Shown here in pieces: positions 6,390 to 60,999 of a stretch of 64,000 nt of DNA; positions within the stretch are counted from its first letter, which is position 1, and every line of letters starts with the position of its first letter. Both the position numbers and the translations under genes were made by a program. Source of the stretch: Collinsella sp. TF06-26 (GTDB lineage: Bacteria > Actinomycetota > Coriobacteriia > Coriobacteriales > Coriobacteriaceae); assembly GCF_002232035.1 (NCBI RefSeq), contig NZ_NKXR01000003.1, positions 124,001 through 188,000 on the forward strand, given 5' to 3'. The notes under the pieces were generated by a model. It ran no database searches. It had not been told where the DNA came from and saw nothing but the letters and a program-made list of their open reading frames with translations.

Positions 6390-6502
6390 TTGGATACCTC
6401 CTCATTCCGGCCTGTATTGCGGATGGAAGTATACCCACCCATCGAAAAACCGAACGGCAGGAGGCGCAACAAGCTGCTGCATGATCCGCCCGCCATGAAA
6501 TG

Positions 6503-6640
6503 GGCCCATCTACTACGTTTAACCGCCCATCCCCGACCATGCCACAAAGCGAAAAAACAAAACCGCAGGTAGAAGTCCTGCGATTTTTCATGAAACGCGG
6601 GTGTGTTCGAGGGTATCGGGTTAAACGTAGTAGATGAGCC
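6503..6640. repeat. CATCTACTAC-family long hairpin element, copy 1
   Basis: Outer 22-bp arms (core CATCTACTACGTTTAACC and its inverse, one mismatch overall) enclose an inner hairpin CGCAGG/CCTGCG. A homologous copy at 17805-17940 shares the arms, the adjacent CCCC.GACCAT segment and part of the right-hand flank. It fills most of the 416-bp gap between the membrane-protein gene and the lactose IIA gene. Confidence 0.8.
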
Positions 6641-6745
6641 AGTTTCGTGGCGAGCGCTGCCAACCGATCCTCCGGGGACGGGAAAAGCGGGTCATTTGGG
6701 GCTGTCGACCTCTATTTCGCCGCAACCTAGATAGGTGGGATACAG

Positions 6746-17752: not shown

Positions 17753-17804
17753 ATAGCTCCGACACATGTGCCAACATGCCTGAAATCGGCGCGCTACAGA
17801 TTGC

Positions 17805-17940
17805 GCCCATCTACTACTTTTACTCCCGCACCCCTGACCATACGCCCCTATTTTCAAAAATCGCACGTTCGCTACCTGCAGTTTTAATATTGCGATTTTC
17901 ATCGTGCTTCGAGGTAAGCGACCAAAAGTAGTAGATGGCC
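17805..17940. repeat. CATCTACTAC-family long hairpin element, copy 2
   Basis: Arms GCCCATCTACTACTTTT and the inverse AAAAGTAGTAGATGGCC enclose an inner pair based on AAAATCGCA/TGCGATTTT. It is homologous to 6503-6640, including the CCCCTGACCAT segment and some right flank, but the inner stem differs. It lies in the 442-bp gap between the ATPase and the IIB gene. Confidence 0.75.
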
Positions 17941-18014
17941 CCAATTCCTGGCCGAGGGCATCTCGCCGCTCCTCCACGGGAAAATACGATCCGTTTTCCT
18001 CCGCCCCCAGGTAA

Positions 18015-45777: not shown

Positions 45778-45836
45778 GCGGCAGTTAGGGACGATCCTAA
45801 ACTGCCGGCAGAAAAGGAACGTCCCCAACTGCCGGC
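45778..45836. repeat. GGGACGTTC-family palindromic repeat, copy 2 (CTGCCGG tag)
   Basis: GGCAGTTAGGGACGATCC, ACTGCCGGCAG and GAACGTCCCCAACTGCCGG lie in the family order. Just upstream, CTAGTCATTAGGG (45766-45778) resembles the left end of copy 1, so two subtypes appear nested here. Confidence 0.75.
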
Positions 45837-46977: not shown

Positions 46978-47035
46978 CCGGCAGTTAGGGACGTTCCTAA
47001 ACTGCCGGCAGAAAAAGAACATCCCTAACTGCCGG
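46978..47035. repeat. GGGACGTTC-family palindromic repeat, copy 3 (CTGCCGG tag)
   Basis: CCGGCAGTTAGGGACGTTCC, CTGCCGGCAG and GAACATCCCTAACTGCCGG. Same tag and order as copy 2. It directly precedes a bidirectional terminator. Confidence 0.8.
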
Positions 47036-59563: not shown

Positions 59564-59638
59564 GTTTTTGTAGTCATGCGGGCGCTCGTTACGGCTCGTT
59601 TAGAGTGGGCGGCCGCGCAACACCATGGGGGTATGAAC

Positions 59639-60571
59639 ATGTCCGATTTGATTAAACTGACGCCGATCTTTCACGAGAAGATCTGGGGCGGCCGCCAGCT
59701 CGAAACCGTATTTGGTTATGACATTCCCGAGGGTCCCATCGGTGAGTGCTGGGCCATCTCGGCACACCCCAACGGCGACTGCCAGATCGCTGAGGGCCCG
59801 TACGCCGGTCACACGCTGTCATGGCTGTGGGCCGAGCACCGCGAGCTCTTTGGCAACTGCGAGGGCAAGGAGTTCCCGCTGCTCATTAAGATTCTAGACG
59901 CCAAGGACGACCTTTCGATCCAGATCCATCCCAATGACGAGTACGCCGCCGAGCACGAGAACGGCAGCCTGGGCAAAACCGAGTGCTGGTATGTACTGGA
60001 CTGCGAGCCCGGCGCCACGATCATCGTCGGACAGCGCGCGCACGACCGCGCCGAGGCCGCGCGTATGATCGAGGACGGCCGCTGGGACGACATGCTCAAC
60101 GTGCTGCCAATTCACAAGGGCGACTTTTTCCAGATTGATTCCGGTACCGTCCACGCCATCAAGACCGGCACGCTCATTTTAGAGACGCAGCAGTCGAGCG
60201 ACGTGACGTATCGCCTATACGACTACGAACGTCCCGGCACCGACGGAAAGCTGCGCCCACTTCACATTGAGCAGAGCCTGGATTGCATCAACTTTAACGC
60301 GCAGGCACCGACCGACGGTACCGTAACCGCGCGCAAGGTCGATGGCGTAACCGAGCTCGAGTCCAACCCCTGCTACACCGTCGATCGCGTGCGCGTCAAC
60401 GGCAGCAAGACCTTGGAGCAGCGCTGGCCCTTCATGTGCCTGTCAGTCATCGACGGCGAAGGCACCGTCTGCGGCGACCCCGTCCACAAGGGAAGCCACC
60501 TGCTAGCCCCGAGCACCGTCAGCTCCATCGACCTCGAAGGCAAGATGGAACTGATCATCAGCCACCTGTAA
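59639..60571 (+). CDS. manA: Mannose-6-phosphate isomerase, type I
   Basis: Zinc enzyme interconverting mannose 6-phosphate and fructose 6-phosphate; about 310 residues. IKILDAKDDLSIQIHPNDEY carries the zinc ligands, and DFFQIDSGTVHAIKTGTLIL is the second ligand region. Starts at 59639 (MSDLIKLTPIF) or 59633; GGGGGT lies before the first. It follows the GntR gene by about 75 bp. Confidence 0.93.
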   Translation: MSDLIKLTPIFHEKIWGGRQLETVFGYDIPEGPIGECWAISAHPNGDCQIAEGPYAGHTLSWLWAEHRELFGNCEGKEFPLLIKILDAKDDLSIQIHPNDEYAAEHENGSLGKTECWYVLDCEPGATIIVGQRAHDRAEAARMIEDGRWDDMLNVLPIHKGDFFQIDSGTVHAIKTGTLILETQQSSDVTYRLYDYERPGTDGKLRPLHIEQSLDCINFNAQAPTDGTVTARKVDGVTELESNPCYTVDRVRVNGSKTLEQRWPFMCLSVIDGEGTVCGDPVHKGSHLLAPSTVSSIDLEGKMELIISHL

Positions 60572-60588: not shown

Positions 60589-60719
60589 GCTCGCCGGAAC
60601 GGGGCGCGGGGTTTGGTCGCCTGCTCGGACAGTCCTGCTCGCACGGAGAGCACATTAAGTGCTCTCCGGCTCGTGCGGAACTCGCGATCGACCAAACCCC
60701 GCGCCCCGTCCCGGCGAGC
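60589..60719. repeat. Hairpin element with a conserved 70-nt core, copy 1
   Basis: 31-bp outer arms (60589-60619, 60689-60719) match except for one position, which is a T-G pair on the minus strand. The core (60620-60688) centres on GGAGAGCAC-ATTAA-GTGCTCTCC. Copy 2 at 60870-60999 carries the same core inverted, yet unrelated outer arms. It lies just after manA. Confidence 0.85.
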
Positions 60720-60751
60720 CTCCGACTAGCAACAACAATCACAACGCAACA

Positions 60752-60786
60752 AGGGGCTCCCCCGTTCATCAACGGAGGAGCCCCTT
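60752..60786. terminator. Hairpin between manA and pcrA
   Basis: CAAGGGGCTCC and GGAGCCCCTTG enclose a smaller pair CCGTT-CATC-AACGG. It is probably the terminator for manA, though T-runs are weak. Confidence 0.6.
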
Positions 60787-60869
60787 GCCATATCTAGCTA
60801 TCGGCCCACCCGGCTCTCCAGACCAAAAAACGAACGAGCAAAGCGACGTTCGCAAGCAGCGTTATCAAA

Positions 60870-60999
60870 GGACCTGGGAGGGCGTATGGGGCAACATCGA
60901 TCGCGAGTTCCGCACGCAAAGGAGAGCACTTAATGTGCTCTCCGTCTTGCGCAGGACTGCCCGAGCAGGCGATGTTGCCCCATACGCCCTCCCAGGTCC
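60870..60999. repeat. Hairpin element with a conserved 70-nt core, copy 2
   Basis: 30-bp perfect arms (GGACCTGGGAGGGCGTATGG… at 60870-60899, inverse at 60970-60999) flank the core 60900-60969. That core, read in reverse complement, nearly equals the copy 1 core. The inner palindrome GGAGAGCAC-TTAAT-GTGCTCTCC is kept. The right arm begins seven bases after the pcrA stop codon. Confidence 0.85.

Follow-up and report, generated by a model that had tools for sequence, protein, structure and literature searches.

The two long hairpins that lie between manA and pcrA in a 64-kb stretch of DNA from the Collinsella aerofaciens group (the whole of this stretch is called the window below) raise the question of how one conserved core can sit on stems that are each self-complementary and unrelated to one another. 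The preliminary description of this DNA reported a pair of inverted hairpins with a common core, both adjoining gene 3′ ends. This was borne out at 60589-60719 and 60870-60999, and the phenomenon proved to be larger than first described. The features of the region are the following.

59576..60571, + strand: manA, mannose-6-phosphate isomerase class I (TIGR00218), upstream of copy 1
60589..60619, + strand: 5′ outer arm of copy 1 (E1), 31 nt, 17 nt past the manA stop codon
60620..60688, + strand: conserved core of copy 1, sense on +, internal loop AGTCCTG..GTGCGGAACT flanking the apical hairpin GGAGAGCAC-ATTAA-GTGCTCTCC
60689..60719, + strand: 3′ outer arm of copy 1, pairing with 60589-60619 save for one A-C mismatch
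60747..60796, − strand: short terminator-like hairpin with a 17-bp stem, between copies 1 and 2 and outside the element; weak Rfam Ref55 match
60870..60899, − strand: 3′ outer arm of copy 2 (E2), element sense on −
60900..60969, − strand: conserved core of copy 2, sense on −
60970..60999, − strand: 5′ outer arm of copy 2, perfect complement of 60870-60899, 7 nt past the pcrA stop codon
61007..63991, − strand: PcrA/UvrD-type DNA helicase, upstream of copy 2; best match TIGR01073, under the curated cut-off

The two cores are about 80% alike over 70 nt and stand in opposite orientation, each between its own arms, and the sense strand of each is the strand of its upstream gene (manA, pcrA). As had been claimed, the arms are self-complementary, perfectly so in copy 2 (30 bp) and with one difference in copy 1 (31 bp). 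However, this difference is not of the G-U type that had been assigned to it: at 60598/60710, A lies opposite C on the sense strand of the core, and the G.T type is found on the other strand only. The mismatch is a recent change, because relatives carry G there. No other inverted repeat in the 64-kb window has both arms of at least 30 nt with at least 97% complementarity. The predicted RNA folds had z = −9.5 (copy 1) and −11.2 (copy 2) against dinucleotide shuffles, and none of 200 shuffles was equally stable; as single-stranded DNA, the elements are also predicted to be very stable.

Some other repeats were seen in the region. Near-identical imperfect palindromes (CGGCAGTTAGGGACG..CTGCCGGCA) of a different repeat family lie about 1.2 kb apart at 45779-45834 and 46978-47035 of the window, and imperfect inverted repeats at 6487-6656 and 17800-17945 have spacers of 64-80 nt and a common motif CATCTACTAC near their arms. 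The manA-pcrA intergenic region is longer in G007 (L230) and in G019, where some 1.9 kb of additional DNA separates the two window copies.

The proposal of a conserved core with copy-specific, self-complementary stems holds for 28 copies in the genome of the window (2.26 Mb), for 152 copies in six genomes, and for more in other families of the order. The core is thus not confined to a single locus, nor do the copies carry one outer-arm sequence. The count of 28 was the same by BLAST with copy 1 and by the covariance model R1, which was built from the copies. Every copy has a core of about 70 nt, the strictly invariant columns of which are AGTCC and CGTGCGGAA with the apical hairpin between them. 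The apical stem exists in covarying versions (GGAGAGCAC/GTGCTCTCC, GGAGGCCAC/GTGGCCTCC, GGAAAGCAC/GTGCTTTCC and others), as does the middle module of the core, and the core holds a conserved U.G pair and a bulge.

The outer arms measure 19-44 bp, and each of the 28 copies has its own arm sequence, unrelated to that of the others; they are perfect in 10 of the 28 and have one to three mismatches in most others. In the alignment of the copies, all of the outer pairs had changes on both sides (15/15). Over arms and core stems, 92% of the cells were paired; shuffling gave 72% and sliding 33-45%. The score for covariation was 0.555 versus 0.191 ± 0.013. Stem covariation across copies, as required of a structured RNA, is therefore present.

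We sorted the 152 elements by their flanks into 34 loci (group 26 is a different hairpin). Only four 18-mers were common between arms of different loci among the 34. Inner tips of 17-18 bp, together with the core type, are common to groups 3/21 and 15/22; given this limited sharing, copies may also convert one another's hairpin tips. Convergent (+/−) pairs about 260-290 bp apart recur, as at C23:184586/184897, C18:2435/2696 and C5:31898/32163 of G000 and also in other genomes of the complex.

We then considered the position of the copies beside genes. A sense-strand gene stops 1-45 nt, mostly 3-19 nt, before the 5′ arm in 16 of the 28 copies. About 12 are not directly behind a sense gene; some of them lie in antisense orientation immediately before a start codon (leuS, thrB), and others lie deeper in intergenic DNA. 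The neighbouring genes (manA, pcrA, pnp, valS, gatB, tsaD, nrdD, thrB, leuS) have no common function. Orientation is constant at 34/34 loci in the six genomes, every opposite-strand flank match being the partner of a convergent pair. Next to a PRK05313-family gene, the element lies 17-20 nt past the stop codon in four Collinsella species (that of the window, G018, G279 and G036) on four unrelated stems, and it is also kept at nrdD (G031) and at leuS (G033, and G299 of another genus). The place of the element beside a gene can be old.

The loci named by the genome scan belong to C. aerofaciens and close relatives, and genomes of the C. aerofaciens complex carry about 21-28 copies. For other Collinsella, our reading is 0 to about 16 copies, the raw counts also taking in antisense echoes. 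Several other Coriobacteriales families have a few copies, in which this core motif is joined to self-complementary arms of unrelated sequence; two genomes of another family of the order, G310 and G226, carry 11 and 9. One copy is present in G033. Outside the order Coriobacteriales, the core was not found among 296 phylum-wide genomes by a search whose filters lose weak matches.

Several known systems were compared with the element. An intrinsic transcription terminator was rejected, since no T-run (U-tract) follows the 3′ arms of the 28 copies. A known Rfam family was also rejected; nothing exceeded the gathering score, and the sub-threshold matches were to miRNA hairpins and sRNAs only. As in riboswitch-type P1 stems, the outer stem covaries and the internal loop is conserved. 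Unlike riboswitch-type RNAs, the element occurs about 28 times per genome, next to housekeeping genes that are unrelated to one another, has 30-45 near-perfect pairs, exchanges its whole stem between strains and belongs to no Rfam family.

The stems of REP sequences repeat a single sequence of 20-40 nt that carries a GTAG/CGTC tag, and in Correia elements (CREE) the inverted repeats are themselves a conserved family sequence. The Coriobacteriales element differs from REP in that its stem changes from locus to locus, its internal core is conserved and it has no consistent RAYT partner, and from CREE in that its inverted repeats are unrelated between copies. The REP/RAYT system was rejected because the arms are unrelated between loci and the transposase is not consistent: RAYT (Y1_Tnp, PF01797) is absent from G310, G226 and G033, present in G007, G014 and G024, and weak in G000. 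REP, BIME and REPIN sequences are described as intergenic palindromes that exist in many copies close to gene 3′ ends and often form inverted pairs (PMC3116915, PMC3733652), and the present element is likewise multi-copy, intergenic, near gene 3′ ends and found in inverted pairs. The Correia elements (CREE/NEMIS) of Neisseria are described as formerly mobile elements with a conserved core and inverted repeats beside genes, which are bound or cut by RNase III (PMC2649163); inverted repeats and a conserved core beside genes are seen here too. Of the features of MITE- or CREE-type elements, clean empty sites exist in relatives (copy 1, seven genomes), and conserved terminal inverted repeats do not, the outer ends differing at every locus. 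No named element of such form was found in a search of open-access literature.

How the stems change was explored at orthologous loci. At the pcrA locus, among about 30 genomes, most have one common stem, in which at least four base pairs are changed on both sides between genomes and a few changes are one-sided, and four genomes carry a different stem and core in that place. Over all loci, alignable orthologous arms have 42 paired and 62 one-sided changes; we estimate from the counts that independent arms would give about 1-2 coincidences by chance. Such paired substitutions, together with unrelated stems in the same position, support the earlier suggestion that the stem is maintained via pairing and not via sequence. 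The leftover mismatches on the sense strand are G.T in 49 cases and A.C in 26 (p = 0.011, inner six positions excluded). This modest excess favours selection on the sense RNA, although strand-biased mutation could also produce it.

The divergence of orthologous arms was bimodal. A difference of at most 10% was found in 114 of the 235 pairs (flanks 10-12%) and one above 20% in 96 (flanks 12-15%); arms often diverge less than their flanks do (0-5% versus 10-12% different). At many loci, stem and core have been exchanged for an unrelated, equally perfect hairpin with the flanks unchanged, and at least five core differences were found in 67 of 86 arm-switched pairs versus 16 of 97 unswitched pairs. 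At the pnp locus, the haplotypes GGTTTCCCGTGGGGCGGGCRCTGATGAAGTTT, GGTCTGGTCTCAGCGGGCCCGGCACGGGCTAAGTTT, GGTCAGGGCTCAGCGGCCCCGGCACGGGCTAAGTTT and GGTCTGGGGCCATCGGGGGCCGGGGCGGGTTAAGTTT each have their own complement, the flanks being nearly unchanged on both sides, and the second and third of them (B and B′) differ by three paired transversions. The 5′ arm of the pnp element (L016 ~1450-1880; G000:C5 31850-32280) starts within the 3′ half of a terminator-like hairpin (GGGGTCGCCCTTTTG), of which the 3′ arm has an inverted copy.

Gradual drift as the sole cause of the stem differences was rejected, since the arm divergence is bimodal and the flanks diverge equally in both classes; the differences may also come from old haplotypes that recombination has spread. 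Arm copying between loci was rejected as well. Arms are rarely common to loci, and the replacement stem of G014 in group 9, with full-length matches inspected in 45 genomes, matched other genomes at its own locus only, so that no donor elsewhere was seen in them.

Our preferred reading, with a probability of about 0.5, is a multi-copy structured RNA hairpin element at Coriobacteriales gene boundaries, whose loop is recognised and whose stem is paired, renewed by DNA events and kept by selection. The element would be transcribed with the neighbouring gene and fold into a single very long hairpin. A putative trans-acting factor, such as an RNA-binding protein or nuclease, would read the conserved asymmetric internal loop (A)GUCCU../..UGCGGAA(CU), and its binding may, for example, process or protect an mRNA end. 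The sequence of the outer 20-45-bp stem would be free because this stem would just have to be long and fully paired. Stems would be created or renewed by fold-back template switching around the core hairpin and by conversion of the hairpin tip between copies, and broken versions would be purged by selection that acts on pairing in the sense RNA at least.

Template switching can create a perfect stem in a single event and mend it through paired changes (PMC8794818). This mechanism would be common to the present hairpins and to those of that study; the latter belong to single microRNA loci and rRNA, whereas the former are a family dispersed over the genome in which the core is fixed and the stems are interchangeable. 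Besides paired multi-base changes, inverted local copies are present. At about nine loci, a further imperfect inverted repeat lies outside the arms at near-equal distances on each side and scores above every random cross-locus comparison. At several loci (tsaD, nrdD, a HAD-type gene, thrB), the left half of this repeat coincides with the 3′ end of the upstream coding sequence, and the right half therefore holds a decayed inverted copy of coding sequence. Such decayed gene ends are what fold-back copying around the core would leave. The suggestion that the arms are built locally by foldback at insertion is thus supported at some loci only; it is contradicted at copy 1, whose empty site holds neither arm. 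It also counts against template switching that core inversion would be expected and that no core inverted between its arms was seen among the 34 loci in six genomes. Overall, the interpretation first given is partly supported.

The RNA-element reading has its own difficulties: the 12 or so copies not right behind a sense gene, the functionally unlike neighbours, and a presence that varies between close strains with empty sites, as in a mobile element. The main rival is a non-autonomous mobile DNA hairpin (REP- or MITE-like) moved by a putative enzyme, in which each insertion, or each replacement at an occupied site, would bring or build new arms; we consider it possible but unlikely. Copy number is 0-16 in other Collinsella and jumps to about 28 in the C. 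aerofaciens complex, and stem and core switch jointly while the flanks stay. A search for empty sites in relatives, as had been proposed, found copy 1 absent with intact flanks in seven genomes, neither arm being present and the junction being otherwise intact, and a core-like hairpin is absent from the manA and pcrA ends in 17/17 more distant Collinsella genomes. Copies are therefore gained, and the arms of copy 1 did not come from its immediate flank. Insertion into a pre-existing long hairpin was rejected on the same empty site, which has no hairpin. However, no target-site duplication was recognised at copy 1, and the element is kept beside the same genes across species. The absence of a Y1/RAYT transposase from two genomes with 9-11 copies argues against RAYT, not against other enzymes. 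No same-arm donor was seen elsewhere for the G014 haplotype, and one apparent double-empty site, in G014, reflects a deletion whose two ends fall within the arms.

It is less probable still that the stems are perfect mainly via mutational quasipalindrome correction, which copies arm onto arm, with weak or absent selection on the stem. Quasipalindrome correction by replication template switching is a known process (PMC8794818, PMC7202029), and it would fit the decayed inverted gene-end copies outside the arms and the double changes, since 13 of the 42 are transversions without a G-U intermediate (three such changes separate pnp haplotypes B and B′). However, free copying does not predict arms that are often 0-5% different where their flanks are 10-12% different, the core is never inverted, and other hairpins of the window fall short of 30 perfect pairs. 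A DNA-level site, at which the arms would extrude a cruciform bound by a chromosome-organising or recombination protein, is very improbable: the stability predicted for single-stranded DNA and the bidirectional placement in convergent pairs would suit it, but the G.T excess is confined to one strand, and RNA is indicated by the conserved U.G pair and bulge in the core and by an orientation that stays constant with respect to the gene.

A scan of retrieved genome DNA detected a second hairpin family of similar design. These long hairpins lack the core motif; their arms are specific to each locus, and their internal loop, GTCCTCG..CTGCGGA(A/T)T, is related to that of the first family. Reversed-sequence controls of the scan gave none. 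The sites are as follows.

L128 2521-2653 (G000:C23 ~80560-80674), with L181, L185 and L214 at the same place: second family
L060 2521-2605; L154 1321-1432; L246 and L141 ~1230-1310: second family

The member in the genome of the window adjoins thrB, and both its arms and its apical stem vary between strains. The pattern TCCTC..CTGCGGA was rejected as a marker of this family, because its matches are mostly chance and equal the reversed-pattern control in number. Taken with the first family, this one suggests that recognition falls on the internal loop and that any of the stems can be replaced.

One further proposal goes beyond the preferred reading, namely a dispersed element with a dedicated stem-rewriting mechanism, in which both arms are replaced in register by a new self-complementary pair absent elsewhere in the genome while core and flanks persist. 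We regard it as doubtful. If true, it would mean a genetic element whose identity lies in a loop and in complementarity instead of in its sequence. Two features that are rarely met together can be read directly in these genomes: long stems that have one core in common and otherwise differ throughout, which form a natural library, and whole-stem replacement within a species in which pairing is kept. The comparison of orthologous loci suggests that a stem can be exchanged as a whole provided that pairing remains. Because only the core is alike, searches for whole-element similarity will miss such families. How RNA stems change without broken intermediates is an old question that becomes testable in a culturable gut bacterium, and the element points to a putative RNA- or DNA-binding activity that would read the internal loop and be conserved across Coriobacteriales.
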